In this document: piece by piece, positions 2,549 through 45,057 of the stretch
How the letters are laid out: the number at the start of each line of letters is the position of its first letter
Position numbering within the stretch: position 1 is the stretch's first letter
NCBI GenBank assembly: GCA_016935315.1
Contig: JAFGRD010000066.1
Coordinates: 1-45,057 of the forward strand
DNA length: 45,057 nt
Direction of reading: 5' to 3'
Origin: Pirellulales bacterium
GTDB taxonomy: Bacteria; Planctomycetota; Planctomycetia; Pirellulales; Thermoguttaceae
Program-made: the position numbers and the translations under genes
The notes under the pieces: model-generated
What the model was told of the DNA's origin: nothing
Databases searched by the model: none
What the model saw: the letters and a program-made list of their open reading frames with translations, nothing else

Positions 2549-2647
2549 TTGACGCTTGCACACTCAATGCGCGAGGGCGACCAACGGGAGCCCGACCTGT
2601 CCGGCCTCCCGTTGGTCGGCCTGGGTCATTCACAATGCAAAGATCAA
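2549..2647 (+). repeat. 99-bp palindromic element, copy 1
   Basis: The outer arms TTGACGCTTGCA (2549-2560) and TGCAAAGATCAA (2636-2647) are imperfect inverted repeats. The inner arms CGACCAACGGGAG and CTCCCGTTGGTCG form a perfect 13-bp stem. The element ends 28 bases before the GTPase start codon. The 206 bases to its left (2343-2548) contain no recognisable gene, though a short open frame (2469-2552) ends at the TGA inside the left arm. See copies at 12453, 18228 and 37494. Confidence 0.85.
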
Positions 2648-8300: not shown

Positions 8301-11300
8301 CTGGTACGGCATCCGCGACCGAACCGGAGAAGAAGGATTCCGCTTTTTCTGCCACGACTCGGAGCACACGCTGTCGCGTGGGCTGACCAACCGCAACGGT
8401 CCGTATCCCGCCGGCGACACGTTCAACAAGAGCAACCCTCAATGGATCCACCAGGAGCTGATGGCCCATCCCGAGTATCGCTTGCGTTTCGCCGACCACG
8501 TACAGAAGCACTTCTTCAACGGGGGAATTCTCACGCCCCAGGAGGCCTCTTCGCGATTTCGCGCCCGGGCGGCGCAGATCGAGATGGCGATTATCGCCGA
8601 ATCGGCCCGGTGGGGCGACGCCCGGCGAGAGCCGCCGCGGACCAAGAACGACTGGCTCGGCGCGATCAACAACGAGGTGAACTCCTGGTTCCCGGGCCGG
8701 ACCCAGACGGTGCTCAGCCAGTTCCCCAACACGGTGCTCCGCAACGGCACGCCCGCCCCGCTGTATCCCGACGTGGCGGCGCCCGACTACAGCCGCCATG
8801 GCGGCGAGGTTGCCTCGGGCGATCGTCTTTCGATCAGCGCCCCCTCCGGCGACATCTACTACACGCTCGATGGCTCGGATCCCCGGCTGCCCGGCGGCGC
8901 CCTCTCGCCGTCGGCACGGCTGTTCCAAGGCAGCAGCAGCACGACCGGCCTGATCGACGTCGACGACTCCTGGGCGTACGACCAGTCGGGCAACGACCTG
9001 CGGACGGCCTGGCGCGAGCCGGGTTTCGACGACTCGTCGTGGTCCATCGGCGACGCCTTGCTCTACGTCGAGACGTCCTCGCTGCCGGCGCCGACCAACA
9101 CCCCCTTGACGCTCGGACCGATCACCTACTACTTCCGCCGACACTTCACCCTGCACGCCGATCCCCAGGACATCTCGTTGCAGTTGTCCACCGTGATCGA
9201 CGACGGCGCGGTCGTCTACATCAACGGCCAGGAGGCCTTCACATTGGGGATGCCGGCCGGGGAGATCGACTACCAGACCCGGGCGGGCCGCGGCGTGGGC
9301 AACGCCCTCTATGAAGGTCCCTTCACCATCCCCACCGACGCCCTGGTCCCAGGCGATAACGTGATCGCCGTCGAGGTCCACCAGACCAGCAGCACCAGCA
9401 CCGACGTCGTGTTCGGTCTGACGCTCGACGCGGTCGTCGACACCACGAGCAACCCGATCACGCTGGTCGATTCGACGCTGGTCAAGTCGCGCGCGCTCGA
9501 AGACGGCCAGTGGTCGGCACTCACGGAAGCCCAGTTCTACGTCGGCCCGTTCGCCTCGGCCGAGAGCCTGGTGATCAGCGAGCTGAACTACAACCCCTAT
9601 GCCCCCGCGGCCGCCGAAGAGGCCGCCGGATACACGGACAACGACGACTTCGAATTCATCGAGCTGGGCAACGTCGGCAGCGAGACGATCGACCTGACCG
9701 GCGTGGAGTTTGTCGACGGCATTGCGTTCACCTTCGGCAGCCAGGCGAAATCGGCGCCGTTGGTGCAGGCCGACTTCGATTCGGGTGCGGACGGCTTCGT
9801 CTACGCCGACGACGTCTTCAACGCCACCGCCGCGCCCGATCTGGCCGAAGGCACGCTCGAGGCCACCGGCGGTGTCAGCGGCGGTGGGCTGCGCGTGCAA
9901 CTTGGGCCGCACATTACCTACCTGGCTACCTCCGGCGGCTGGTCGCGGAACTTCAGTCTTGCCCGGGCCGACACGGTCCACGTCTCGCTGCAGTTCCGCA
10001 TGGTCCTGGGCGAAGGCCTGGAGACGGCCGAGTACGGCCAGACGATCCTGGAGATCGACGGGGTGCGCTACGGAAGTGACGTCGACAACAGCCTGGTCCA
10101 CCAGGCCGGCGACGGCAACGGCGGCGGAGACGACGACACCGGGTGGCTCTCGGCCAGCTTCAGCGTACCGCTGTCGGCCGGAGACCACGCGATCACGATC
10201 GGGGCGTACAACAATCGGGCCACCTCGGCCGACGAGTTCGTGGAGGTCTTTTTCGACAACCTGTCGATCGCCACTTCCTTAAACCCCATGCGGCTGGCGC
10301 CCGGCCAGCGCGTGGTGATCGGCCGCAGCGAGGCGGCGTTGGCGCTGCGCTACGGCACGGCCGGCATGGTCGTCGCCGGCACGTACGACGGCAAGCTCGA
10401 CAACGCCGGTGAGCGGATCGAACTGGTCGACCGGTCGGGCAGCGCGATCGTCGCGTTTGAGTACAACGACACGGGCGATTGGCCGGGCCGGGCCGACGGC
10501 AAGGGGGCCTCGCTCGAGCTGATCGATCCGGCCGGCGTGCCACCCGACGAGCCGCAGCGGACCGCGTACCTCGAGGACGGCGACAATTGGCGCAGCAGCA
10601 GCGAGTATGGCGGCTCGCCGGGCATCGCGGGCGAGGGGCCTCAAGACGATGTCCTGGTCAACGAAGTGCTCTCCCATACCGATTGGCCCGTGGTCGACAC
10701 GATCGAGCTGTTCAACGCCAGCGACGCGGCCATCGACCTGGGCGGCTGGTATTTGAGCGACTCCGGCACGGACTACCGCAAGTTCCGCATTCCCGACGGC
10801 ACGACCCTTGCCGCCGGTGGATACGTCGTGTTCGACGAGGACGACTTCAACCCGACGCCGGAAAGCCCCGGCCCGAACGACTTCGCGCTGGACGGGGCCC
10901 ACGGCGACGACGTGTGGTTGCTTGAGGCCGACGCGGCCGATCGGCTGACGCGGTTCGTCGATCACGTGGACTTCGGCCCGGCGGCCAACGGCGAGTCGTT
11001 CGGCCGTTGGCCCAACGGCTCCGGCGATCTGGCCCCGATGCGCTGGACCACGCTGAACCCGGTCGCCGGCGAGAACAGCGGGCCGAGGGTCGGACCGGTG
11101 GTGATCAGCGAAATGATGTACCATCCCGACGCGTCCGAAGGCGCCGACGACCTGGAGTACATCGAAATCTTCAATCCCGGCAGGGAAGCGGTCGACCTGA
11201 CCCATTGGCGGCTGGACAACGGCGTCGCGTTCGATTTCGCGGCCAGCACGGTGCTCGAACCCCAAGCGGCCTTGGTCGTCGTGGCGTTCGATCCGGGCGA

Positions 11301-12456
11301 CGCCGAGAAGCTGGCGGCGTTCCGTGATCAGTACGGGATCGACGAGTCGGTGCGGCTGGTGGGCGGATACACCGGCCAGCTCAACGATGACGGGGAGCGC
11401 GTGCAGCTCCAGCGTCCCGACGCCCCGCCGCCCGACGAGCCGGGCTTTGTCCCGCGGTTGGTGGAAGACGAGGTCCGCTACGGCGATCAGCCCCCCTGGC
11501 CGGTCGAAGCCGACGGCGGCGGCCAGTCGCTTCGCCGCGCCGCCGTGGATCTCTGGGGCAACGACGGGCTGAACTGGCTGCCCGCGGATCCGACCCCCGG
11601 CTCGGTCCTGACGGCATGTCCCTCGGTGGTCCATCGCGCGATCTTCTACAACCATTCGGCGTTCGACGGCAACGATGCGGCGGCCGACGCACGCGACGAC
11701 GAGGCGATCGCCATCGACAAGCAGGCCTTGCTGCCGGGCGAGACGGCCACCGCGGCCAACTACACCGGTTACAGCCGCGGCATCAACGGCATCATGGTCG
11801 ACCTGGCGGGTGCCGGGGCCGTCGACGCGGCCGATTTTCAGTTCCGCGTGGGCAATACGAACGATCCGAGCACCTGGCCGCCGGCCCCCGACCCAATCGG
11901 CACGTGGGTGCGCTCGGGCGACGGCCTGGGCGGATCGGATCGGGTGACAATCGTCTGGGACGACTTCGCCATTACGAAGCAGTGGCTGCAGGTAACCGTG
12001 CTGGCGACGCCCGATACGGGGCTGTGCTCGGCCGACGTCTTCTACTTCGGCAACGCCGTCGGCGACGCGTGCAACGCGACGGGCGACGCGCGGGTCAACG
12101 CGACCGATATGCTGCTGGCCCGGAACAACCCCCGCAGTTTCCTCAACCCGGCGCCGATCGATTTTCCCTACGACTTCAACCGCGACGCGCGGGTCAACGC
12201 CACGGACATGCTGCTGGCGCGGAACAACCAGACGCACTTCCTTAATGCGTTGAACCTGATCGCGCCGTCGGAAGCGAAGCCCGGCGAGGAGGTCGCCGCG
12301 GCCGCGGCGTCGGCCGCGAGTGCGGACGGCCTTTCGGCGCCGTACGACTGGGTGTATCGGTACGAGGACCTCAGTGTCCCCAACCACCAGTCCAAGCAGA
12401 GCGACGCCGACACGGACCTCTGGGCCATGCTGCTGGCCGCCGAGGGGGATTCTTGA
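5392..12456 (+). CDS. Giant CotH-kinase/lamin-tail/dockerin-type surface protein
   Basis: The product is 2354 residues and predicted to be extracellular. After a basic leader with the LEPR-type motif EPLEPRRVLDAG (about 37-48) come lamin-tail domains (about 48-150 and 222-330). A chitobiase-C-like module with YYTLDGSDPT (580-640) precedes a CotH-kinase-like domain (about 690-1010, HDSEHTLSRG near 989). A second YYTLDGSDP module lies at about 1154, then a beta-sandwich (1230-1355). Three more lamin-tail domains start near 1393, 1753 and 1900; the first is split by an inserted module. A dockerin-like C-terminus has two GDARVNATDMLLARNN-type calcium loops (about 2225-2285). CotH homologues phosphorylate spore-coat proteins in Bacillus; activity here is unproven. 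The stop codon TGA lies inside the 99-bp repeat. Confidence 0.85.
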   Translation: MGSIRTKRPNATTARRAARRPKHPGPKTVAHARLVMEPLEPRRVLDAGPLVVSELMAINESVHPDGDGDYSDWIEIHNPTDARVDLGGWYLTDDATDLMKWQFPGGQVDAGGYLVVFASGKDPNGPAGQWHTNFQLDGDGEYLALVRPDGETVSHQFAPEFPEQFEDVSYGTSQDATAFTLSGEGLTYRVPTAGDAALGTAWTAPGFNDSAWSGFALPPRVLITEACTGSWDYAEIQNLSGAVVDTSGWVVAANDATGDVPDINTVHATLWTLPDSIGADDVLYRTDNPDDPSHYWNENIFWRTSGPGWVMLVDDAGNVVDFVVWGYGSEQITSLAVTINGFDVTADGSWIGESVGVNQISDASLQRSGVNDHDDLSDWTFVAPTSQGVQNEGLTVPFSGRGAPGIGFELSPPGLEGVIQMDVADAMHGRNASLWTRIPFVVDNPGVLDTMALRMRYNDGFAAYINGREVARRNAPDLLAFDAAAPDGRSVAETLVAEEIELTDARDALVAGTNVLAIHGLNAAATDANFLVLPELVVTSARYFVEPTPGLPNGAGILGFVGDTAFSVDRGFYQNPFFLAITTDTPGTSIYYTLDGSDPTEETGIRYDGHVYISRTTTVRAAAFRSGYQPSNIDTHTYLFLSDVVRQSPNGEAAAGWPTGPINGQVLDYGMDPNIVNDSTWGPQLAEALTAIPTMSIVTDLDNLLDPATGIYTHPREDGDFWERPTSMELIYPPGAEGPGFPDGADEGFQIDAGLRIRGGYSRSTSNPKHAFRLFFRNEYGDGKLNYPLFGDEGTDSFDKVDLRTAQNYSWSFDGGSANAMCRDVFVRDTQGLTGNAYTRSRYYHLYINGQYWGLYQTQERSEAAYGSSYFGGERENWDTVKVTTDGYVIHATDGSLAAWQDAWNQARAGLGTDAAYYRIQGLNPDGTRNPAYPVLIDIDNLIDYMIIVLYDGDRDAPISNFLSNTSPNNWYGIRDRTGEEGFRFFCHDSEHTLSRGLTNRNGPYPAGDTFNKSNPQWIHQELMAHPEYRLRFADHVQKHFFNGGILTPQEASSRFRARAAQIEMAIIAESARWGDARREPPRTKNDWLGAINNEVNSWFPGRTQTVLSQFPNTVLRNGTPAPLYPDVAAPDYSRHGGEVASGDRLSISAPSGDIYYTLDGSDPRLPGGALSPSARLFQGSSSTTGLIDVDDSWAYDQSGNDLRTAWREPGFDDSSWSIGDALLYVETSSLPAPTNTPLTLGPITYYFRRHFTLHADPQDISLQLSTVIDDGAVVYINGQEAFTLGMPAGEIDYQTRAGRGVGNALYEGPFTIPTDALVPGDNVIAVEVHQTSSTSTDVVFGLTLDAVVDTTSNPITLVDSTLVKSRALEDGQWSALTEAQFYVGPFASAESLVISELNYNPYAPAAAEEAAGYTDNDDFEFIELGNVGSETIDLTGVEFVDGIAFTFGSQAKSAPLVQADFDSGADGFVYADDVFNATAAPDLAEGTLEATGGVSGGGLRVQLGPHITYLATSGGWSRNFSLARADTVHVSLQFRMVLGEGLETAEYGQTILEIDGVRYGSDVDNSLVHQAGDGNGGGDDDTGWLSASFSVPLSAGDHAITIGAYNNRATSADEFVEVFFDNLSIATSLNPMRLAPGQRVVIGRSEAALALRYGTAGMVVAGTYDGKLDNAGERIELVDRSGSAIVAFEYNDTGDWPGRADGKGASLELIDPAGVPPDEPQRTAYLEDGDNWRSSSEYGGSPGIAGEGPQDDVLVNEVLSHTDWPVVDTIELFNASDAAIDLGGWYLSDSGTDYRKFRIPDGTTLAAGGYVVFDEDDFNPTPESPGPNDFALDGAHGDDVWLLEADAADRLTRFVDHVDFGPAANGESFGRWPNGSGDLAPMRWTTLNPVAGENSGPRVGPVVISEMMYHPDASEGADDLEYIEIFNPGREAVDLTHWRLDNGVAFDFAASTVLEPQAALVVVAFDPGDAEKLAAFRDQYGIDESVRLVGGYTGQLNDDGERVQLQRPDAPPPDEPGFVPRLVEDEVRYGDQPPWPVEADGGGQSLRRAAVDLWGNDGLNWLPADPTPGSVLTACPSVVHRAIFYNHSAFDGNDAAADARDDEAIAIDKQALLPGETATAANYTGYSRGINGIMVDLAGAGAVDAADFQFRVGNTNDPSTWPPAPDPIGTWVRSGDGLGGSDRVTIVWDDFAITKQWLQVTVLATPDTGLCSADVFYFGNAVGDACNATGDARVNATDMLLARNNPRSFLNPAPIDFPYDFNRDARVNATDMLLARNNQTHFLNALNLIAPSEAKPGEEVAAAAASAASADGLSAPYDWVYRYEDLSVPNHQSKQSDADTDLWAMLLAAEGDS

Positions 12457-12530
12457 CGCTTGCATGCTCAATGCGCGAGGGCGACCAACGGGAGCCCGAC
12501 TTGTCCGGCCTTCCGTTGGTCGCCCCGGCC
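12453..12530 (+). repeat. 99-bp palindromic element, truncated copy 2
   Basis: The left arm TTGACGCTTGCA begins at 12453, so the TGA at 12454-12456 is also the stop codon of the CotH-type gene. The inner palindrome CCAACGGGAG/CTTCCGTTGG is present with one change. The right outer arm is missing; similarity fades after about 12530, shortly before the stop of the convergent Hsp20 gene at 12560. Confidence 0.75.
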
Positions 12531-16941: not shown

Positions 16942-18231
16942 ATGAGACGACGCGTTGTGGTGACCGGAATCGGCTACGTGACGCCTTTGGGTTCCGAGAT
17001 TGAGACGGTTTGGCGTCGAGTGCTCGCCGGCGAGTCGGGAATCGGCTACATCACCCTGTTCGACGCCAGCAATTTCCCCACCAAGATCTCCGCCGAAGTC
17101 CACGACTGGGACCTCTCCGACGTGGGAGAAGACCCCGAAGAGTGGAAGTATCAAGGCCGCCATACCCACTTTGCCATCGGGGCCGCTCGCAAGGCAGTTG
17201 CCGACTCGGGCTTTGAGGACGCCAAGATCGATCCCACCCGCTTCGGCATCTATCTGGGAAGCGGCGAAGGCCAGCAAGACTTCCACCGCTTCACGCAGAT
17301 GATGGTGGCCGGGCTCTCCGGCAGCGAGGGTCTGGACCTGGTCAAGTTCACCAAGACGGGCCTGGAAACGCTGCACCCGATCGCCGAGCTGGAGCAGGAG
17401 CCCAACATGCCGGCCGGGCACCTGGCCAGCCTGTTCGGCGCCGAGGGCCCCAACATCAACTGCCTGACCGCCTGCGCCGCCAGCAGCCAGGCGATCGGCG
17501 AGGCGGTCGAGATCATCCGCCGCGGCGAGGCCGACGTGATGCTCTCCGGCGGGACCCACACCATGATCCACCCCTTCGGTGTGACCGGATTCAATTTGCT
17601 GACCGCGCTGAGCACGCATAACGAAGAACCGAAGAAGGCCTCGCGCCCCTTCGATCGCAACCGGGACGGGTTCGTGCTGGGGGAAGGTGCCGGCATGGTC
17701 GTGCTCGAGTCGCTCGAGCACGCCAAAGCCCGCGGCGCCAGAATCTACGGCGAGATGTGCGGCTACGGCTCCACGGCCGATGCCTTCCGCATTACCGACA
17801 CCCACCCGGAAGGCCGCGGCGCCATCAGTTGCATCAAGCTGGCGCTGCAAGACGCCGGCGTTGATGTCGACGAGATCGACTACATCAACGCCCACGGCAC
17901 CAGCACCAGCGTGAACGACAAGGTGGAGACCTTGGCGATCAAGCAGGTGTTCGGCCAACGGGCGTACCAGATTCCCGTCTCCAGCACCAAGAGCATGATG
18001 GGGCATCTGATCGCCGCGGCCGGCGCCACGGAGGTGATCTTCTGCCTGTTGGCCATGCGCGACAACGTCGTGCCGCCGACGATCAACTACGAAACGCCCG
18101 ACCCCGACTGCGACCTGGACTACGTCCCCAACGTCGCCCGGGAAGTCCCCTGCCGCACGGTGTTGACCAACAGTTTCGGCTTCGGCGGCCAGAACATTGC
18201 GCTGTTGATCAGGCAGTTTGCGGGTTATTGA
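16942..18231 (+). CDS. FabF/KAS II-type 3-oxoacyl-ACP synthase
   Basis: The product has 429 residues and a thiolase fold. It is expected to condense an acyl thioester with malonyl-ACP. The Cys-His-His triad is intact: Cys178 in CLTACAASSQA, His318 in NAHGTSTS and His355 in GHLIAAAGATE. The NSFGFGGQN motif lies near the C-terminus. Several insertions relative to a minimal FabF are visible near residues 60-75 and 110-140, so substrate use may differ from housekeeping FabF. It starts 3 bases after the second dehydratase. Its TGA stop (18229-18231) is inside the left arm of the 99-bp repeat. Confidence 0.9.
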   Translation: MRRRVVVTGIGYVTPLGSEIETVWRRVLAGESGIGYITLFDASNFPTKISAEVHDWDLSDVGEDPEEWKYQGRHTHFAIGAARKAVADSGFEDAKIDPTRFGIYLGSGEGQQDFHRFTQMMVAGLSGSEGLDLVKFTKTGLETLHPIAELEQEPNMPAGHLASLFGAEGPNINCLTACAASSQAIGEAVEIIRRGEADVMLSGGTHTMIHPFGVTGFNLLTALSTHNEEPKKASRPFDRNRDGFVLGEGAGMVVLESLEHAKARGARIYGEMCGYGSTADAFRITDTHPEGRGAISCIKLALQDAGVDVDEIDYINAHGTSTSVNDKVETLAIKQVFGQRAYQIPVSSTKSMMGHLIAAAGATEVIFCLLAMRDNVVPPTINYETPDPDCDLDYVPNVAREVPCRTVLTNSFGFGGQNIALLIRQFAGY

Positions 18232-18326
18232 CGTCTGCACAGTCAAGGCGCGAGGGCGACCAACGGGAGCCCGATTCTTCCGGCCTCCCGTTGGTCGGCC
18301 TTGATCATTGGCAATGCAGATATCAA
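18228..18326 (+). repeat. 99-bp palindromic element, copy 3, shared by two stop codons
   Basis: The left arm TTGACGTCTGCA (18228-18239) contains the TGA stop of the ketosynthase gene. The right arm TGCAGATATCAA (18315-18326) contains, on the minus strand, the TGA stop of the convergent MFS gene. The inner stem CGACCAACGGGAG/CTCCCGTTGGTCG is perfect. It fills the whole convergent intergenic space. Confidence 0.85.
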
Positions 18327-19612
18327 TAGCGTCTCGATTGCCGAAGCCCGGTGGCCAAGAGGACGGCGGAGACAATGACGCCCAACGCGGCGATCGGCAG
18401 GAAGCGAAGGTCCGCGTGGGAGGCGGCAACCCGGTCGACCGACCAGCCCAGCAGCGGCGCGGCCACCGCGACGAACAGGCTTTTGGCCTGCGATTCGATG
18501 CTCAAGACCGTCGCGGTCTGCGCCGAATCGGCATGGGACGCCACGCGGCTGATGAGAATCGGCCGCCAGAAGTTCTGGCAAATCGCAATCAGCACGAACG
18601 CCAGAATGGTCAGCGGCGAGAGGCCCGCCAAAACGCCTGCGCCCATGGCGGCAAACACCAGCAGGTTGACCAGCCAGAGCGAACGGGCGGCCCGGTCCTC
18701 GCCGCCGCACCGCGCCGCCAGGCGGCCGGCGCCGCGCGAGGCGAAACTGCTGAACAGGTGCAGCACGAAGAAGACGACGCCCACGCCCACGGCCACGCGC
18801 TGGGGTTCGGCCAGCGCCAGGCGGTCGCCCAGCGCCAGCATCCACGGCAGCGAAAGGCAGGCCGCCTGGATCACCGGCTGGACGTAATCCCTGCTCGATT
18901 GGAACAGGCCCTCGTAGCCCATCGACTCGACCAGCATCCGGCGCAGCCGCCGGTGCCGCAGACTCTGCGAGACGGCCGAAATCAGCATCCGCAGAATGCC
19001 GCCGACCCGGTCGGGGTGCTCTCGCGGGCCGTCGAGATACGAAGGGTAGCCCAGGAAGTTGATGATGTTCAACGCGTAGGGAACGATGCAGAAGAGAAAG
19101 ACACTCGAGTACTGTTCGGTATAGAGAACCAGGCCCGTGGCGATGACCACGCTGGCCGCTGAGCCGAGCTTGCTCCACGATCGGGTGCGGCCGTAGACGG
19201 CGGTCTTTTGCGAGAGTTGGCCCTGGCGCTCGAGCCAGTCGAAGATCATCGCCTTGTGCGTTCCGGTCCGGAAGGCCTCGCCGAAGGAGAACAGCAGCAT
19301 GGCGGCGAAGAGCGTCCAAACGGGCTGGCAAAGGCCGAAGATGGCGAAGGAGGCGATGTAGGCGACGAAGGAGGCGATCATGGACCGCCGCCTGCCCATC
19401 ACGTCGGCCACCGCGCCGGTGGGGACCTCCAACAGATTGATGCAGATTGCCCGGAACCCGATCAGCACGCCGATCATGCCGAACGAGAGCCCCTTCTGGA
19501 GAAAGGCCAGGACCAGGAACGGGTCGTAGTACTGTTGATTCTTGAGAAACCCGTACAGGCAGAAACGCCAGAGCATCCGTCGTGACTGGCTCAAGACTGT
19601 CGCTCTTTCCAC
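18323..19612 (-). CDS. MFS-family transporter
   Basis: This 429-residue inner-membrane carrier has about 12 predicted membrane segments and a central loop. The major-facilitator loop 2-3 signature is seen as EVPTGAVADVMGRRRSM. The substrate is unknown; similarity is to general drug-efflux or sugar-type MFS proteins. The listed start is a GTG at 19612; ATG at 19576 (MLWRFCLYGF) is an alternative, and neither has a strong Shine-Dalgarno. Its stop codon is provided by the right arm of the 99-bp repeat. Confidence 0.8.
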   Translation of the reverse strand: MERATVLSQSRRMLWRFCLYGFLKNQQYYDPFLVLAFLQKGLSFGMIGVLIGFRAICINLLEVPTGAVADVMGRRRSMIASFVAYIASFAIFGLCQPVWTLFAAMLLFSFGEAFRTGTHKAMIFDWLERQGQLSQKTAVYGRTRSWSKLGSAASVVIATGLVLYTEQYSSVFLFCIVPYALNIINFLGYPSYLDGPREHPDRVGGILRMLISAVSQSLRHRRLRRMLVESMGYEGLFQSSRDYVQPVIQAACLSLPWMLALGDRLALAEPQRVAVGVGVVFFVLHLFSSFASRGAGRLAARCGGEDRAARSLWLVNLLVFAAMGAGVLAGLSPLTILAFVLIAICQNFWRPILISRVASHADSAQTATVLSIESQAKSLFVAVAAPLLGWSVDRVAASHADLRFLPIAALGVIVSAVLLATGLRQSRRY

Positions 19613-30103: not shown

Positions 30104-30118
30104 TGCGAGTCCAGCTAC
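30104..30118 (-). repeat. Half-copy of the GCAR hairpin at the uvrA stop
   Basis: The minus strand reads GTAGCTGGACTCGCA, the left arm and loop start of the hairpin family, but the right arm is absent. The TAG in it is the uvrA stop codon. Confidence 0.4.
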
Positions 30119-33100
30119 CCGGCGATCGGGGCCTTGCGGCGCTTCCGCACCGCGGCGAGGTGCTCCTTGAGAAACTTCGCCAGATTGCCGCGGGCCAGAT
30201 CGGCGGCGGAGCGGAACTTCAAGTGGATCACGTCGTAGCCGGCGTGCTGGCCGTCGATGTCCGGCTCGTGCCCCAGCCCGGCGATCCGCCCCAGCGGAAA
30301 GCGGTTCTTCGGACCTGTCAAGTGTAAATACACCGCATCGACCTTCTTCGTCTGCACGGCCGCCCAGGGCTCCCGCTGCTCGGCTACGTACCAGGGCACC
30401 ACCTGCTTGTTGTTCCAAAGCGTTTGGGCCTTGGGGGCGGTGGCCGAGAGCAGCTCGCAGAGTTCCTCGAGCAGGTCGGCGCCCCAGGCCACCTTCTTGC
30501 CCAGCGGAAATCCCTTCCGCGCGAGGTGCCACTTCTGCCCCAACTGCTTCCAGGGTTGCAGGACAGCGGCCCCGTGCTGCACGCGCTCGGTGAACGCGGC
30601 GAAACCGGCCACGGCCTGGTCGACAAACTCCCAAAACTCCGGGCGGTCGATCTCCTGGAAGCCGTGGACCCGCAGCTCGACCTCCTGCCACGGCCCGCGC
30701 AGGTTCTTGCAGCGGACCCGCGGCTCGGTGCCGTAGAGCGGCAGCTCGGGCACGTCGTTCAGCGGCTTCAGGTCCAGCCGCCCGATCAACTCTTCGCGGC
30801 GGAAGGTATTGCGCGCGGTGCGGAATTTCAGCTTCAGCAGCCACTCCTCGCCGGTGATGGCGTGGAAGAACCAGCCGTCGGACTTCTTGGCGGCGCGGAC
30901 CTCGACGACCGTGCGATTGCCCCAATCGGTCTCGCTGAACAGACCCTCCTCCTCCTGGATGCGATCGACGATTGCGCCGAGCACCCGCCCGTCCCAGCGG
31001 CACGGATGGCCGGTGCGGCCGACGCGATCGATCGTGTGCCAGTGGCGGCCGTGGATCTGCCAGGGCATTTTGGCTTCGCGCCCGACTTCCGTGATGTCGA
31101 GGTCGCCCGCGCCGGTGGCCTCTTCGGCGGCAAAGTCATGCGGCGTGCGTTTGGCAAACGGTCCGGCAGCCAGCACCGGATCGAGCACTTCGCCCGTGTA
31201 GCTGCGGTGCCGCTTGGCGGCGGGCTTTGCCGGCGACGGCCGCTTCGTCTTCCTCCTCGTCTTCTTCTTGGTGATCTTCTCCTGCGAGGCTTGCCATTGG
31301 CGGCTATGGGCCACGACGTCCTCGGGCGTTCCGGCAACCACCAGGTGGCCGCCCTGGTCGCCCGCCTCGGGCCCCAGGTCGATCACCCAGTCGGCCGTCT
31401 TGATCACGTCGAGATTGTGCTCGATGACCACTACGGTGTTTCCCAGATCGACCAGCCGGTTCAACACGTCCAGCAGCTTGGCCAGGTCGTCGAAATGCAG
31501 CCCGGTGGTCGGCTCGTCGAGCAGATAGAGGGTGCGTCCGGTGTCGGGCCGGGAGAGCTCGGCGGCCAGCTTCACGCGCTGGGCCTCGCCGCCGGAGAGC
31601 GTGGGGGCCGATTGGCCCAGCGTCAGATAGTCGAGCCCCACGTCGCAGAGTGTCTGCAAAATGCGGCGGATCTTGGGGATGTTGGCGAAGAGCTTCACCG
31701 CCTCGCCGCAAGGCATCTCGAGGACGTCGGCGATCGACCGGCCATGGTAGCAAACGGCCAGCGTCTCGGGATTGTAGCGCCGGCCGCGGCAGGTGTCGCA
31801 CTCGACCCAGACGTCGGGCAGGAAGTGCATCTCGATGCGAAGCTGGCCGTTGCCCTCGCATTTTTCGCAGCGCCCGCCCGCCACGTTGAAGCTGAACCGC
31901 CGCGGGGTGTAGCCGCGGAGCTTGGCCTCGGGCAACTGGGCGTAGAGCGAGCGGATCAGGTCGAAGACGCCGGTGAACGTGGCGGGGTTTGAGGTGGGCG
32001 TTTGCCCCAAAGGCTGCTGATCGACGCGAATCACCTTGTTGATCAGCTCGATGCCGTGGATGGCGTCGTGGGCGCCCGCAAACGTGCTCGCCCGGTGCAG
32101 CGTGCGGGCCAGGGCGTTGTAGAGCACGTCCTCGACCAGCGAGCTCTTGCCGCTGCCGCTGGTGCCGGTCACCACGGTGAACGCGCCCAAGGGGATTCGG
32201 GCATGGATGTTCTTGAGGTTGTTGTGCCGGGCCCCGACGGCTTCCAGCCAACCATCCGGGGCGCCATTCGGGGCACCGCCCGCTGCGGCCCCCCCGCCAT
32301 CGGCCGCACGCCGCTCGGCGACCGAGGCCATCCTCCGGTTGGTCGGCACGGCAATCGACTTCTTGCCCGACAGATACGGCCCCGTCACCGACGCGCGGCG
32401 TTTGGCCACCTGGGCGGGTGTGCCGCGGGCGACGATCTGCCCGCCGTGCCGGCCGGCGGCGGGGCCGAAGTCGAGCAGTTGGTCGGCGCTTTCGACCACC
32501 TCTCGGTCGTGCTCGACGACCAACAGCGTGTTGCCCAGATCGCGGAGCTTTTGCAGCGCCCCCAGCAGCCGCCGGTTGTCGCGGGCGTGCAACCCGATGG
32601 TCGGCTCGTCGAGCACGTAGAGCACACCGCACAGTCCGCTGCCCACCTGGGCCGCCAGGCGAATCCGCTGCATCTCGCCGCCGGAGAGGCTGGGAGCGGG
32701 CCGGGCCAGCGACAGGTAGTCCAGGCCCACGTCGACCAGGAACTGCAGCCGGTTGCGAATCTCGCGCAGCAACTCGCCGGCGATTTCCCGTTCGGTGTCG
32801 TCGGGCTGCCATGCCGTGAACTGTTCCAACAGCGACCCCAGCGGCAGCCGGCAGTATTCGTCGATGGCGCGGCCCCGCAGTCGGACGGCCGCCGCGTCGT
32901 CGCGGAGCCGGCTGCCGCTGCACACCGAGCACTCCACCTCGTCGACCAGGTGCTCCAGACGGCTGCGAAACGCCGGCGAAAGCCGGCTGGCCTCTTCCAG
33001 GGCGGGGTAAAGGCCCTTGTATTGGAAACGCAGCACCGGGTGGGGTGACGCCCGCTTGGATCCCCTGCTGTGCCCAGGGCCGCTGCCCGCCGCCGGCAGG

Positions 33101-36100
33101 GGCGCGTCGAACCAGCGGTCGCCCGTGCCGTGCATGATCAGGCGGCGGTGTTTCGCCCCGAGCTGCTCGAAGGGCACGTCGGCGGGAACACCGCTGCCTT
33201 GGGCGAAGGCCTCGAGCATCAGCGGAAACAGGCGGCCGTCGACGTTCGGCCAGATCGCCACCGCCCCCTGGGCCAGAGTGAGCTTGGGATCGCGCAGCAG
33301 GGCGGCCGGGTTGGTGCCGGTCTGGGTGCCCAGCCCCTCGCACGCCGGGCACCAGCCCAGCGAGCTGTTGAACGAGAAGTTGTGCGGCGACAGCGGCTGG
33401 AAGCTCCGCCCGCACCGGTCGCAGGCGAAGTGCTGGCTGTGGACCTCGGTCGGCCAGTCGGGCTCCGGCACGTCGGCCCGGGCGTGGGCCACATGGAGCA
33501 CGCCGCGACCCAAGGCCAGGGCGTTTTCGACACTGTCGGCGATGCGCGAGCGGGCGTCGGGTGCGACCGTCACGCGATCGATCACCACCTCCAGCTCATG
33601 CTTGCGGCGCCGGTCGATCTTCGGTGCTTCGTCGATCGAATGGGTCTGCCCGTCCACGCGAATCCGCACGTAACCCGACGCGCGAATCTCGTCCCAAAGT
33701 GCCTCATATTGCTCGCCCACGTGGATCTGCAACGGGGCCATCAGGTAGAGCCTCGTGCCGTCGGGACGCCCCATCACCTTGGCGATCACCTCGTCGGCCG
33801 ATTGGGTGCCGATCGTCACGTCGCAATCGGGGCAGAAGGGCTCGCCCAGCCGCGACATCAGGATCCGCAGGTAGTCGTAGATCTCGGTCACCGTGCCCAC
33901 GGTGCTCCGCGGGCTGTGGCCGGTGTGCTTTTGCTCGATGGCGATCGCCGGCGAAAGGCCCTCGATGTGGTCGAGCTTCGGCTTCCGCATCTGGCCGACG
34001 AACTGACGGGCGTACGCGCTGAGGCTCTCCACGTAGCGCCGCTGGCCCTCGGCATAGATCGTGTCCATCGCCAGCGAACTCTTGCCCGACCCGCTGGGGC
34101 CGCAACAGACCGTCAGCCGGTCGCGAGGGACCTCGACGTCGACGTCCTTGAGGTTGTGTTGCCGGGCGCCGCGGACCTTGATCGCCTTGGCCAGGGCGGT
34201 GCGGCGGGCCGGTTTGCGGCCCCGCTTCGCCGCCGCGGCGTTCGGCACGACCGCGGCATGGCCGTGGAGCATCGCACGCAGGGCCTTGCCGGTGTACGAC
34301 CGGCGGTTTTGGGCGATCTGCTCGGGCGTTCCGGCGGCCACGATGCGACCACCCTGCTCCCCGCCCTCGGGCCCCAGGTCGACGATCCAGTCGGCCGTCT
34401 TAACCACGTCGAGGTTGTGCTCCACCACCAGCACCGTGTTGCCGGCGTCGACGAAGTCGTGCAACACCTTAAGCAGCAACTGGATGTCGGCGAAGTGCAG
34501 CCCGGTGGTCGGCTCGTCGAGCAGGTAGAGCGTCTGACCGGTGCTTTTCTTGACCAACTCGCGGGCGAGCTTGACCCGCTGCGCCTCGCCGCCGGAGAGG
34601 GTCGGCGAAGGCTGCCCGAGCTTCATGTAGTCGAGCCCCACGTCGTGCAGCGTCTGCAGCTTGTGGCGGATCTTGGGGATGTTCTCGAAGTGGTCGAGTG
34701 CCTCCTGCACGTCCATCTCGAGCACCTGGGCGATCGACTTGCCCTTGTAGCGGATCTGCAACGTTTCGCGGTTGAAGCGGTGGCCTTCGCAGACCGGGCA
34801 GGTCACCCAGATATCGGCCAGGAAGTCCATTTCGAGCCGGTTCGAGCCGTTGCCCTCGCAGCTCTCGCACCGTCCACCCGCCACATTGAAGCTGAATCGC
34901 CCCGGCTTGTAGCCCCGGGCCTTCGATTCAGGCAATCGGGTGTAGAGTGCTCGGATTTCGTCGAGCACCTTGATGTACGTGGCCGGGTTGCTCCGCGGGG
35001 TGCGTCCGATGGGCGACTGGTCGATGGCGATCATCTTGTCGAGGTGCTCGAGGCCGTCGATCCGCTCGTGGCAGCCGGGGTCTCCGATGCCGAAATTCAA
35101 ATCCCGCCGCAGGGCCTCGACCAGGATGTCGCCCACCAGCGAACTCTTGCCCGAGCCGGAAACGCCCGTGACACAGACGAACACGCCCAGCGGAATCTCG
35201 ACGTCGATCTGCTTGAGGTTGTTGTGGGCGGCGCCGCGGACGACGAGCCTCTGCTGTCCGACCGGCCGTCGCCGGGCCGGCACTTCGATCCGCTGCTTGC
35301 CCGAAAGATACTGGCCGGTGACGCTCTGCGGCTCGGCGGCGATCGCCTCGGCCGGTCCGGTGGCCACGACCCGGCCGCCCCGCACGCCCGGCCCCGGGCC
35401 GAAATCGACGATGTGGTCGGCCGCCCGCATGGTGTCTTCGTCGTGCTCAACGACCACGACCGTGTTTCCCTGGTCCCGAAGCCTTGCCAGGGTGTCCAGC
35501 AGCCGGCCGTTGTCGCGGGAGTGCAGGCCGATCGAAGGCTCGTCAAGGATATAGAGCACGCCGACCAGCCCGCAGCCGATCTGCCCCGCCAGGCGGATCC
35601 GCTGCATCTCACCGCCGGCCAGCGTGGGCGCGGTGCGGTCGAGCGTGAGGTAGTCGAGGCCCACATTCCGCAGGAAACGCAGCCGCCCGCGGATCTCCTT
35701 GACGGCCTCGGCCGCGATCACCTGGCCCGTTTCGTCGAGCTGCAGCTCTCGGAAAAACTCCTCGGCGTCGGAAATCGCCAGGGCGCTGAGTTCCGGCAGC
35801 GAGCGCTCGGGCCGGTCGGCGAATTGCGGCGAGGCGGAAGCGATCGTCACGGCCCGGGCCTGGGGATTCAGCCGCTGCCCATGGCAGCGGGCGCAGCCGA
35901 TCACCCGCATGTACTTCTCCAGCTGCCGCCGCTGCGGCCGGCTGCGGGTGTTGCGGTATTGCGAGAGCAGCTTGGGAACGATGCCCTCGAACTGGCCGCC
36001 CCATTTGTAGCCGGAAGGCCCGTCGCGCCAGGTAAACGTCACGTGCAGCTCGCCGGTGCCGTGGAGCATCGCGTCGCGCAACCGCTCGTCGAGCTCTTCC

Positions 36101-37155
36101 CAGGCCGTCTCCAGCACGGTCCCCTTCTCGAAACCGTAGGTCCGCTCCAGGGTTTCCGCCACGCCCCGAAAAATGGTTCGCTTCCAGCGCCCCATCTTGC
36201 GCCAGCGACCGACCAACTCGACGCAGCCCTGCTGGAACGACTTGGACGGGTCCGGGATCAGCCGCTCGGGATCAAAGCCGTAGACCTCGCCTAGACCGCT
36301 GCACTGGGGACACATCCCTTGCGGGCTGTTGAAGCTGAACAACTGCGGACTGGGCGGCTCGAAGCTCAGTTGGCAGTGCGTGCAGGCGTAGTGGGCCGAA
36401 AGCTGGATGTCGGTTGCCGGACCGCGCCCGTCGACGGCCTCGGCCGCGACGATCAGGTTTCCGTCGCCCATCCGCAACGCCAGCTCGACGGCCTCGGCCA
36501 AGCGCGGGCGGATCTTCGGCCCGGCCGCCAGCCGATCGACCACCACCTCGATGTTGTGGCGCATCTGCCGGTCCAGCCGCAGATCGTCGTGCAGCCGCAC
36601 CACGCTGCCGTCGACCCGGGCACGCGCGAAGCCCTGCTTCAACAGGTCTTCGAAAAGGTCGCGATACTCGCCCTTCTGCCCGCGGATCAGAGGGGCCAAC
36701 ACCAGGATCTGCGTGCCGTCGGGCAAGGCCGCGATCCGCTGCAGGATCTGTTCCCGGGTTTGGGCCGTGATCGGCCGCCCACAGTCGGGGCAATGTCCCT
36801 TGCCAACCCGGGCGTAGAGCACCCGCAAATAGTCGTAGATCTCGGTGATCGTCCCCACCGTCGAGCGGGGGCTCTGGCCAGTCGACTTCTGCGAGATCGA
36901 GATCGACGGGCTCAGCCCGGAAATCAGGTCCACGTCCGGCTTGGGCATCTGCCCGAGGAATTGCCGCGCGAAGCTCGAAAGGCTCTCCACATAGCGCCGC
37001 TGCCCCTCGGCATATAACGTGTCGAACGCCAGCGAGCTCTTCCCCGAGCCGCTCACCCCCGTCAGGCAAATCAACTGGTTGCGGGGTAGCCGCAACTCGA
37101 TATCCCGCAGGTTGTGCTCGCGGGCGCCCTTGATGACGATGTCGGAAGCGGCCAT
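30115..37155 (-). CDS. uvrA: Giant double UvrA (excinuclease ABC subunit A) with C-terminal extension
   Basis: The product has 2346 residues, about 2.5 times a normal UvrA. Two complete UvrA units are fused. Four P-loops are intact: GVSGSGKS at 33-40 and about 664, GPSGSGKS at about 1019, GTSGSGKS at about 1664. Signatures are LAGGEMQRIRLA, LSGGEAQRVKLA, LSGGEMQRIRLA and LSGGEAQRVKLA, with Walker B DEPSIGLH or DEPTTGLH/DEPTIGLH. Both units keep the C-terminal zinc finger pairs (CESCEGNG/CPVCEGHR and CEKCEGNG/CDTCRGRR). UvrA recognises bulky DNA lesions and loads UvrB. A Lys/Arg-rich insert (near 1965-1985) and an unassigned tail of about 360 residues follow. ATG 37155 starts the conserved part; the frame is open to 37335. 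Confidence 0.93.
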   Translation of the reverse strand: MAASDIVIKGAREHNLRDIELRLPRNQLICLTGVSGSGKSSLAFDTLYAEGQRRYVESLSSFARQFLGQMPKPDVDLISGLSPSISISQKSTGQSPRSTVGTITEIYDYLRVLYARVGKGHCPDCGRPITAQTREQILQRIAALPDGTQILVLAPLIRGQKGEYRDLFEDLLKQGFARARVDGSVVRLHDDLRLDRQMRHNIEVVVDRLAAGPKIRPRLAEAVELALRMGDGNLIVAAEAVDGRGPATDIQLSAHYACTHCQLSFEPPSPQLFSFNSPQGMCPQCSGLGEVYGFDPERLIPDPSKSFQQGCVELVGRWRKMGRWKRTIFRGVAETLERTYGFEKGTVLETAWEELDERLRDAMLHGTGELHVTFTWRDGPSGYKWGGQFEGIVPKLLSQYRNTRSRPQRRQLEKYMRVIGCARCHGQRLNPQARAVTIASASPQFADRPERSLPELSALAISDAEEFFRELQLDETGQVIAAEAVKEIRGRLRFLRNVGLDYLTLDRTAPTLAGGEMQRIRLAGQIGCGLVGVLYILDEPSIGLHSRDNGRLLDTLARLRDQGNTVVVVEHDEDTMRAADHIVDFGPGPGVRGGRVVATGPAEAIAAEPQSVTGQYLSGKQRIEVPARRRPVGQQRLVVRGAAHNNLKQIDVEIPLGVFVCVTGVSGSGKSSLVGDILVEALRRDLNFGIGDPGCHERIDGLEHLDKMIAIDQSPIGRTPRSNPATYIKVLDEIRALYTRLPESKARGYKPGRFSFNVAGGRCESCEGNGSNRLEMDFLADIWVTCPVCEGHRFNRETLQIRYKGKSIAQVLEMDVQEALDHFENIPKIRHKLQTLHDVGLDYMKLGQPSPTLSGGEAQRVKLARELVKKSTGQTLYLLDEPTTGLHFADIQLLLKVLHDFVDAGNTVLVVEHNLDVVKTADWIVDLGPEGGEQGGRIVAAGTPEQIAQNRRSYTGKALRAMLHGHAAVVPNAAAAKRGRKPARRTALAKAIKVRGARQHNLKDVDVEVPRDRLTVCCGPSGSGKSSLAMDTIYAEGQRRYVESLSAYARQFVGQMRKPKLDHIEGLSPAIAIEQKHTGHSPRSTVGTVTEIYDYLRILMSRLGEPFCPDCDVTIGTQSADEVIAKVMGRPDGTRLYLMAPLQIHVGEQYEALWDEIRASGYVRIRVDGQTHSIDEAPKIDRRRKHELEVVIDRVTVAPDARSRIADSVENALALGRGVLHVAHARADVPEPDWPTEVHSQHFACDRCGRSFQPLSPHNFSFNSSLGWCPACEGLGTQTGTNPAALLRDPKLTLAQGAVAIWPNVDGRLFPLMLEAFAQGSGVPADVPFEQLGAKHRRLIMHGTGDRWFDAPLPAAGSGPGHSRGSKRASPHPVLRFQYKGLYPALEEASRLSPAFRSRLEHLVDEVECSVCSGSRLRDDAAAVRLRGRAIDEYCRLPLGSLLEQFTAWQPDDTEREIAGELLREIRNRLQFLVDVGLDYLSLARPAPSLSGGEMQRIRLAAQVGSGLCGVLYVLDEPTIGLHARDNRRLLGALQKLRDLGNTLLVVEHDREVVESADQLLDFGPAAGRHGGQIVARGTPAQVAKRRASVTGPYLSGKKSIAVPTNRRMASVAERRAADGGGAAAGGAPNGAPDGWLEAVGARHNNLKNIHARIPLGAFTVVTGTSGSGKSSLVEDVLYNALARTLHRASTFAGAHDAIHGIELINKVIRVDQQPLGQTPTSNPATFTGVFDLIRSLYAQLPEAKLRGYTPRRFSFNVAGGRCEKCEGNGQLRIEMHFLPDVWVECDTCRGRRYNPETLAVCYHGRSIADVLEMPCGEAVKLFANIPKIRRILQTLCDVGLDYLTLGQSAPTLSGGEAQRVKLAAELSRPDTGRTLYLLDEPTTGLHFDDLAKLLDVLNRLVDLGNTVVVIEHNLDVIKTADWVIDLGPEAGDQGGHLVVAGTPEDVVAHSRQWQASQEKITKKKTRRKTKRPSPAKPAAKRHRSYTGEVLDPVLAAGPFAKRTPHDFAAEEATGAGDLDITEVGREAKMPWQIHGRHWHTIDRVGRTGHPCRWDGRVLGAIVDRIQEEEGLFSETDWGNRTVVEVRAAKKSDGWFFHAITGEEWLLKLKFRTARNTFRREELIGRLDLKPLNDVPELPLYGTEPRVRCKNLRGPWQEVELRVHGFQEIDRPEFWEFVDQAVAGFAAFTERVQHGAAVLQPWKQLGQKWHLARKGFPLGKKVAWGADLLEELCELLSATAPKAQTLWNNKQVVPWYVAEQREPWAAVQTKKVDAVYLHLTGPKNRFPLGRIAGLGHEPDIDGQHAGYDVIHLKFRSAADLARGNLAKFLKEHLAAVRKRRKAPIAG

Positions 37156-37493
37156 TTGGCGGTTGCGGAAAAGACGATGGTTGCGGCGAATTTGGCAGGG
37201 CGACGGCAAATCTTGAATTCTAGCGCGCCGACGGGCAGCCGCACAGGGAGCCACCGGCCGCAACCCCCGAAAGATCGCCTGTCGCGCCCGGCGATCTCCG
37301 TCCGTCGGATGACGCGCGATTGAATCGAGGGCCAATAAACCCTATTGCAGATTGAACTTACGTCAACCGCATTGAGGCGGCTTCGGCTACAATTGGGCTG
37401 AAATCGGATGCATTGCGAGAAGCGGGCCGTCCTGGCGAGTTATCTTGCGGAAGTCACCTCGCCTGGACAGTGGACAGGTCGCCTGCGACACTA
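37156..37493. other. Divergent intergenic region between uvrA and the acyltransferase
   Basis: No gene can be supported. A 29-codon frame (37408-37497) ends at the TGA in the left arm of the repeat copy, following a TACAAT at about 37389-37394, but it has no ribosome site. A TAGAAT on the minus strand near 37215 could serve uvrA but lacks a convincing -35 box. Confidence 0.35.
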
Positions 37494-37592
37494 CTGACGT
37501 TTGCACAGTCCATGCGCGAGGGCGACCAACGGGAGCCCGATTTTTCCGGCCTCCCGTTGGTCGGCCTTGATCGGTCGCAATGCAAACATCAA
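37494..37592 (+). repeat. 99-bp palindromic element, copy 4
   Basis: Left arm CTGACGTTTGCA (37494-37505) and right arm TGCAAACATCAA (37581-37592) flank the perfect inner stem CGACCAACGGGAG/CTCCCGTTGGTCG. It ends 24 bases before the acyltransferase start, so it would be part of the leader. The arms differ from copy 3 by paired changes that keep the stem. Confidence 0.85.
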
Positions 37593-37616
37593 TAGACACG
37601 GCCGTTCGGTGGTGCC

Positions 37617-44767: not shown

Positions 44768-44852
44768 CTGCACTTTCTGAAAAAACGGCAGTTAGGCCTA
44801 CAAATCAGGGGAAAGGCGGCGCAGCCGCCTTTCCCTCAATTTCGACTTCGTA
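44768..44852 (+). repeat. 85-bp direct repeat, copy 1, with palindrome
   Basis: It opens with CTGCACTTTCTGAAAAAACG and ends TTTCGACTTCGTA. It contains a perfect 12-bp stem GGGAAAGGCGGC/GCCGCCTTTCCC (44809-44835), which may end the cysK transcript although only TCAATTTC follows. A near-identical copy starts 205 bases later. Confidence 0.8.
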
Positions 44853-44972
44853 TCGCTGCATGCCCTGCCATCGGACCCATGATTATTCGCCAACCCGCCG
44901 GCAGGGCCTGAGGCGGGAAAAAACGCCATGAAAGAGCAAAGCCGCTGCGCGCCTTTCCTCCTTCATATAGGT

Positions 44973-45057
44973 CTGCACTTTCTGAAAAAACGGCACTTAG
45001 GCCTACAAATTGGGGGGAAGGCGGCGCAGCCGCGTTTCCCTCAATTTCGACTTCGTA
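44973..45057 (+). repeat. 85-bp direct repeat, copy 2, at the window edge
   Basis: It matches copy 1 over the same 85 positions with a handful of differences. In its palindrome (about 45014-45040) one arm reads CCGCGTTTCCC, which weakens the stem. It reaches the last base of the window, so the array may continue. The 120 bases between the copies hold no gene. Confidence 0.8.

Follow-up and report, generated by a model that had tools for sequence, protein, structure and literature searches.

The 99-nt element at positions 37,494 to 37,592 of a 45,057-nt contig from a Pirellulales bacterium can fold back on itself over almost its entire length, and further copies are present on the same contig (contig C107; this whole stretch is hereafter called the window). 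The locus raises the question of whether the folded form is under selection or whether a palindromic sequence has simply spread. A previous reading, which was based on the sequence only, favoured selection on a folded RNA or single-stranded DNA because both partners of one stem pair had changed together. Here, we conclude with a probability of about 85% that the element is a MITE, i.e. a non-autonomous DNA transposon, of the IS630/Tc1-mariner type that carries a conserved internal hairpin. The family is a large TA-type MITE family of Pirellulales-like bacteria, which is new but ordinary in kind; among the papers listed by full-text literature searches, no title or abstract opening named such an element in Pirellulales.

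The element in the window

The element has a length of 99 nt, or of 105 nt if the flanking YTA and TAR are counted. Thus, it is shorter than 200 bp, and it contains terminal inverted repeats and no transposase gene. A short core hairpin is present in both arms, as GGGC...GCCC in the left arm and as GGCC...GGCC on the other strand in the right arm, and this arrangement generates the long near-palindrome that had attracted attention (Table 1). The copy at 37494 is predicted to fold with -54.8 kcal/mol as RNA (z -7.1) and with -31.5 kcal/mol as DNA (z -6.5), values that none of 200 shuffled sequences reached in either case. However, such an extreme z-score is expected of any near-palindrome.

Most of what had been described for the window could be reproduced. 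The three full copies are all exactly 99 nt long and lie on one strand, the pair at stem position 8 (8/92) is T-A in copy 1, C-G in copy 3 and T-A in copy 4, and pair 7/93 is a C.A mismatch in copy 1 and T-A in the other two. Two statements needed to be narrowed. The inner 13-bp stem is identical in the three full copies, but the truncated copy carries one C-to-T exchange. The common orientation applies to the window, whereas 68 plus-strand and 47 minus-strand copies were counted among 115 full copies in the host DNA examined.

Table 1 Features of the window that are related to the element
Feature	Position	Strand	Remark
Full element (copy 4), subject of this study	37494..37592	+	99 nt
TA of the target duplication, left side (Y-TA)	37492..37493	.	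TA/YTAR statistics, empty sites
TA of the target duplication, right side (TA-R)	37593..37594	.	TA/YTAR statistics, empty sites
Left terminal inverted repeat, copy 4	37494..37514	+	Resembles IS630 ends
Right terminal inverted repeat, copy 4	37572..37592	-	Resembles IS630 ends
Left-arm 19-nt core hairpin, GGGC-GA-CC-AAC-GG-GA-GCCC	37520..37538	+	Sequence; comparison between genera
Right-arm core hairpin, GGCC-GA-CC-AAC-GG-GA-GGCC form	37548..37566	-	Sequence; relatives
Full 99-nt element (copy 1)	2549..2647	+	Flanks TG and GA, not TA
Truncated element (copy 2), 73 nt matched	12453..12525	+	TTGA provides the stop codon of the predicted gene 5497-12456
Full 99-nt element (copy 3)	18228..18326	+	Ends carry the stops of both convergent genes
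TGA stop that the element provides for the ketoacyl-synthase gene (16957-18231), following one extra Tyr codon	18229..18231	+	
TGA stop of MFS-type gene (18323-19576, minus), from the right end of the element	18323..18325	-	
Empty-site copy (single TA) of another dispersed repeat; filled in L054 and L229	44973..45057	.	
Second empty-site copy of the same dispersed repeat, including flank	44768..44892	.	

Copy number and target site

The host genome comprises 7.10 Mb in 172 contigs, of which 1,543,333 bases (1.54 Mb), partly chosen because they contain copies, were searched with a profile derived from the copies in the window and then rebuilt from full copies. This search yielded 137 non-overlapping copies, of which 115 are full length and 99 have exactly 99 nt; their median identity to the consensus is 92%. 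The density of 59 copies in 746,361 bases on four long contigs (C78, C87, C65 and C164), which were picked because the first searches matched them, extrapolates to about 560 copies in the genome.

Beyond a Y-TA at the left end and a TA-R at the right end, the flanks are random, which sets the boundaries of the family. A pyrimidine is found at position -3 in 111 and a purine at position +3 in 112 of 114 full copies, and among the 115 full copies TA precedes the element in 73 and follows it in 76, with 50 copies having it at both ends. In the latter 50 copies, the outer letters are C/G in 16, T/G in 13, C/A in 11, T/A in 8 and G/G in 2 cases. Because these letters combine freely, they look like part of the target rather than of a stem. 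Moreover, two insertions (L054:16008 and L229:12271) reside inside another dispersed repeat, whose uninterrupted copies, including the two in the window, contain a single TA, while in the filled copies the element stands between two TAs or their decayed remnants. Thus, the element inserts at YTAR with duplication of TA, and two paralogous empty sites support this view. This corresponds to the TA duplication of IS630/Tc1-mariner-type transposition, which is reported to have been shown in vitro for ISY100 (PMC2170065).

Several further observations were made on these repeats. The dispersed repeat with the empty sites (44768-44852 and 44973-45057, with related sequence at 2312-2356) contains a GC-rich hairpin (GGAAAGGCGGCGCAGCCGCCTTTCC) and a TTAGGCCTACAAAT part, and it has partial matches at ten other loci of the host DNA examined. 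A third dispersed repeat (GCAAGGCCGCTGCGCGTCCTTGCACTTTCATGTATGCCC; L060:11315-11420, L055:16701-16809, L232, L204, L054 and L216) adjoins the 99-bp element in at least two places. At L037:10991-11389, two copies of the element stand head to tail with a common shortened junction (ACATTATTGACG), showing that tandem forms exist. The flanks of L062 and L063 resemble neighbouring copies in inverted order. Copies at or near the ends of host (G000) contigs C13, C14, C22, C23 and C57 indicate that the family may break the assembly.

Insertion at stop codons

Genes were predicted with a home-made caller (1076 genes, 86% coding). Among the 106 host copies that do not lie at an edge, 98 are intergenic, 6 partly overlap a gene call and 2 are located inside one. 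The neighbours of the intergenic copies are oriented -+ in 28, -- in 28, ++ in 27 and +- in 15 cases. In 30 of the 106 copies, the stop codon of a gene falls on the terminal bases of the element, and the 33 stop-bearing sides read TATTGA (17), CATTGA (7), TGTTGA (3), GATTGA (3) or otherwise (three). This is more than the availability of YTAR would predict, as 124 of 692 stop and intergenic YTAR sites are at stops (p 0.0057 for all 106 copies; 0.0016 if the 30 are set against the 98 intergenic copies). Entry of the element into TAA or TAG regenerates a stop codon, in the form TAT-TGA, by means of the terminal TTGA.

The ketoacyl-synthase gene upstream of copy 3 is an example. The encoded protein, which has the C-terminus ...FAGY, has a match in all 61 sampled genomes, and most of the best-scoring matches listed end at residue 420-423 of 424, some being partial. 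Eight of nine inspected relatives end exactly one codon before the added Tyr, with TAA or TAG as the stop codon in seven of the eight, and the ninth (L288) is longer. Since the relatives end one codon earlier, the insertion at 18228 most likely replaced the stop codon by TAT-TGA; the orthologues thus reveal the conversion of a stop codon to Tyr-TGA by insertion. In relatives of the element in other genomes, gene ends lie on the element on the left in 4 of 39 and on the right in 6 of 25 cases.

The long stem does not covary in the host

Covariation was assessed with the 99 copies of exactly 99 nt, the 16 full copies of other length being set aside, and standard pairs were counted against 2000 trials in which one side of the stem was shuffled. 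At position 8, the copies have T-A (59), T-G (26), C-A (6), C-G (6) or other combinations (2), and 17% of the shuffles gave at least as many standard pairs (p 0.17). C is present on the left in 12 and G on the right in 32 of the 99 copies; they meet in 6 copies, about 4 being expected if they were independent. The meeting of both changes at position 8 is therefore not clearly above chance. At position 7, 62 copies have C.A and 28 have T-A (p 0.98 for standard pairs). Thus, neither pair covaries, and the compensatory change loses its value as a sign of selection on folding: a compensatory pair that is read off three copies of a repeat can be due to chance. The consensus long stem as a whole fares no better in the larger alignment, as 2 of 49 nested pairs (35/65 and 46/54, both with few cells) have p <0.05, which is about the chance level.

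If a folded strand were under selection, G.T should exceed A.C on that strand. Outside the subfamily sites, G.T was found in 98 and A.C in 110 of 3267 cells (p 0.45). With these sites, which had been chosen for omission after viewing the columns, the numbers are 164 and 119 (p 0.009), the excess stemming from sites 8 and 16. A compensated outer stem was hence rejected as evidence of RNA selection in the host. The long stem also has two standing mismatches, G29.G71 in 89 and C43.C57 in 91 of the 99 copies, because each of these bases has its partner in one of the local hairpins (pairs 29-43 and 57-71). Within the local hairpins, none of the 594 cells of either arm shows a double change. Divergence in the host is lower at core sites than at terminal sites (4.3% vs 5.8%, p 0.04, subfamily-like sites omitted), but selection on the core in resident copies was discarded as an explanation, as the difference per base is small for C and G, is carried mostly by A and is opposite for T. 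Altogether, the resident host copies are read as decaying like unconstrained DNA, with no sign of selection for a folded strand.

A 19-nt hairpin is shared between genera

BLAST matches to the element were obtained in 14 of 101 genomes of the family, and a covariance model built from the relatives gave matches under strict filters in 18 of 119 genomes and 14 of 40 genera (host included in both cases). The exact 21-mer of the core occurs in at least 28 stretches of named genomes. Among the matches listed, 25 belong to Planctomycetota, mostly to MAGs titled Pirellulales and many of them to one MAG, and Kitasatospora, Frankia and a rumen Bacteroidales contribute one each. As far as seen, the element is confined to Pirellulales-like planctomycetes. 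Searches for the elements of the relatives started from either the host element or the core, and the matches were then filtered by script for core and ends, so that the conservation of these parts is overstated and elements lacking the core would be missed. The loci L168-L195 were recovered with the exact GGCC form of the core; they contribute six rows (L176 two, L180, L181 two, L189) to alignment A1, which takes elements of exactly 106 nt only, and two rows (L181) to alignment A2.

The 85 matches of the covariance model are 106 nt long in 56, 105 nt in 9 and 107 nt in 4 cases. Most of the relatives shown have the core in one arm only, the other arm being partly complementary or not at all, and the two-armed form is also found in another genus (G044, L110). 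The core that is common to the elements of other genera has the 19-nt consensus GGNC-GA-CC-AAC-GG-RA-GNCC. For the 33 elements that measure exactly 106 nt, pairwise identity averages 90% within the core. The corresponding values are 82% and 95% for the outermost hexamers, 65% and 59% for the remaining terminal repeats and 44% for the middle. RNAalifold predicts the core hairpin as the only consensus structure of these 33 elements. Its six pairs are standard in 99.0% of the cells in this set and in 97.4% in a set of 84 rows, which includes four opposite-strand readings of elements also present and from which an identical row was dropped. In the larger set, pair 3 is C-G in 56, G-C in 23, U-A in 1, U-G in 1 and other in 2 of 83 cases, the innermost pair is C-G in 71, U-G in 6, U-A in 1 and other in 1, and at pair 1 one C-G replaces G-C. 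The 84 rows contain 26 cells with double changes, as many as in none of 500 shuffles, and both this number and the covariation score exceed those of all 500 shuffles and of all slid versions. The number of core pairs with a double change (3 in the 84 rows) was reached by 6 of 500 shuffles, and by 28 of 500 in the small set. A tree computed without the core columns, which is weak, needs at least 3 changes at pair 3. To judge from these alignments, the internal hairpin does look preserved by evolution, its pairs apparently being kept between genera through double changes.

The outer stem also changes in step between genera, position 8 being T-A in 22 and C-G in 9 of the 33 elements. However, this covariation is explained without any fold by one transposase that recognises both terminal repeats. 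A consensus fold of the terminal repeats was not returned by RNAalifold, although counting of pairs shows covariation; terminal inverted repeats can thus mimic RNA covariation between genera. In genome G015, two elements of about 95 bp (L252:1501-1595 and L265:315-409) have a core cut to GGGCGCAGCCC, in which the stem of the hairpin is kept and the inner part is lost.

The core could be a site in double-stranded DNA for a dimeric protein rather than a hairpin, a possibility that we consider rather unlikely. The core is an inverted repeat GGNC...GNCC beside the terminal repeat, the 155-bp element of Neisseria contains an IHF site (PMC2229807), and G.U does not exceed A.C in the core (8 vs 7). 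The tree, moreover, requires as few as 3 swaps at pair 3, so that few events speak for pairing. On the other hand, the symmetric exchanges of G and C with few mixed pairs at pair 3 and the series C-G to U-G to U-A at the innermost pair fit base pairing better.

A more specific idea, which we regard as doubtful, is that the conserved unit is the 19-nt hairpin with its tandem G-A mismatches and that it serves an IS630-type transposase or a host factor as a signal recognised by its structure. It is similarly speculative that this signal would be read as RNA, as single strand or as cruciform; in addition, the ends would render insertion into stop codons safe for genes on either strand. Equally tentative is the accompanying view of the architecture, with the core at a nearly constant 29-30 nt from one end, a nearly constant element length of about 106 bp corresponding to ten helical turns, and a middle that diverges. 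We know of no structure-dependent hairpin signal of this sort for the IS630-type class of transposons. It is a testable puzzle that a short internal hairpin seems to surpass most of the terminal repeats in conservation.

Proposed selection on source elements rather than at each insertion site

In the host DNA examined, the core-like motif has 230 matches within elements and 1 outside. As resident copies are subject to decay and the motif occurs almost exclusively in elements, the hairpin would be kept by selection on the source elements, for mobility or persistence, and not for a job at each insertion site. The earlier alternative between selected folding and simple spread may accordingly be divided: the family has spread as a sequence by transposition, while the notion that folding is selected may be right for the source elements, i.e. 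elsewhere and at another level than had been indicated, as the internal hairpin suggests between genera.

It is improbable that a structured RNA or single-stranded DNA, for instance a stabiliser of 3' UTRs, an RNase III site or a terminator, is selected at each locus. The very stable fold, the stop codons on the element ends, which place it in the 3' UTR of many genes, the covariation of core and outer stem between genera and the G.T excess in host copies when subfamily sites are counted would agree with such a role. An RNA role could also explain the strand of the flanking genes in the relatives, which leans to one side (++ 27 vs -- 14, p 0.06; right-hand neighbours + 41 vs - 22). For these and the G.U counts, six of 85 rows were dropped (three that read the opposite strand, the two of the palindromic L110 and one duplicate), as were six more at locus edges. 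However, covariation is absent from the 99 host copies, and G.T equals A.C outside the subfamily sites. The host copies show no strand bias (++ 27, -- 28), although strand is hard to judge with a near-palindrome, and 28 of the 98 intergenic copies lie between divergent genes. A described RNA family was not found either: Rfam gave no gathering matches in the window, and in six element loci only a tRNA appeared at E <=1.

A REP/REPIN-type palindrome moved by a RAYT (Y1 transposase) would likewise be palindromic, intergenic and present in high copy number, and REPs of the GTAG/CGTC type are reported from planctomycetes (PMC3733652); yet this origin is extremely unlikely, as TA is duplicated at YTAR, the tetranucleotide foot (GTAG or CGTC) is absent, the empty sites speak against it, the element has 99-106 bp with TATTGA ends instead of a REP hairpin of 20-40 bp, and the search for a Y1 transposase in the genome (completeness estimated at 95%) gave a single Y1_Tnp match (35.5 bits), which is part of a larger open frame. 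This Y1_Tnp domain (L009, G000:C97:248-448) follows GRGSGTECGSGTE-type repeats within a long open frame, as though read-through of a repeat array had produced a fused frame.

Candidate partner transposons

As a MITE, the element would be moved in trans by an IS630-type transposase that acts by cut and paste. The ends of the host IS630-type element L068 (type TATTGAC..TCGCAGAAGTAGTGA) share at most 16 of 23 positions with the MITE end (one end of L068/L112 in 16 of 23), and one end of the IS630 fragment L134 agrees in 17 of 23. A related genome, G067, contains a degenerate IS630 (L118) that has HTH domains and is bounded by TATTGATTCCTGTATAGCCAATG and TATTGACCCCTGCGCAATCAATG, which match the MITE end in 17 and 19 of 23 positions, respectively. 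As a control, the best match in 144 element-free 3-kb draws of host DNA was at most 14 in 126 draws and at least 17 in 3. Moreover, a MITE of the relative G033 (L084) has the other IS630 end type, identical in 22 of 24 positions to an IS630 of G026, and nearly the same core. The IS630 copies of G067 and G026 are likewise inserted at YTAR. The resemblance of the ends supports movement by IS630-type transposases but does not prove it.

An intact transposase with closely matching ends was not found in the host. L068, the longest IS630 of the host, was dismissed as an intact autonomous partner, as it has another end type and is split into two parts in different frames, and the other DDE_3 matches in the host are fragments. 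In the 1.54 Mb of host DNA examined, 20 single end-like sites lie outside elements, and no lone matching ends are paired at a distance of 0.6-2.6 kb. In the host, only IS630 remnants with partly matching ends were thus found. The similarity of the core to GAACCAACTGGGAGGG near an end of the degenerate L118 is suggestive, but it is too short to claim homology.

Comparison with known systems

The closest counterpart may be sought in RUP of pneumococcus, which is described (PMC2229807, PMC3049150) as a 107-bp intergenic element that targets TA, has ends resembling an IS630-type IS and is present in 108 copies. Length, intergenic position and target are alike, and the ends partly resemble IS630 ends here as well. 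However, the element described here resides in a planctomycete host, has another sequence, an internal hairpin common to several genera and stop-regenerating ends, and a closely matching intact partner was not found in the host. The Correia/NEMIS elements of Neisseria (about 107 and 155 bp) are also short TA-type MITEs, they give stem-loop transcripts, and the 155-bp form bears an internal motif, the IHF site (PMC2229807). Here, in contrast, the internal motif is a 19-nt hairpin, the inner part of which is lost in L252 and L265. Like our element, BOX of pneumococcus can supply the stop codon of the upstream gene: 36 copies reportedly do so, without strong evidence for truncation (PMC3049150). 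The ends of BOX are compared there with ISSpn2, whereas in our case TA and the adjoining TTGA together form the stop at the very site of insertion. Finally, IS630 and ISY100, which are Tc1/mariner-type IS, duplicate a TA target as the element does (PMC2170065), and a title cited in the same source states that IS630 prefers the target CTAG, a case of YTAR. In contrast to the element, they are autonomous and encode their transposase.

Other features of the window

Two features of the window are independent of the repeats discussed above. A minus-strand open frame of 2347 aa at 30115-37155 has large internal repeats and Walker-A-like motifs, and it may encode a doubled UvrA-type protein. In addition, five tandem 147-nt repeats are located at 1357-2091 within the gene called at 553-2217.
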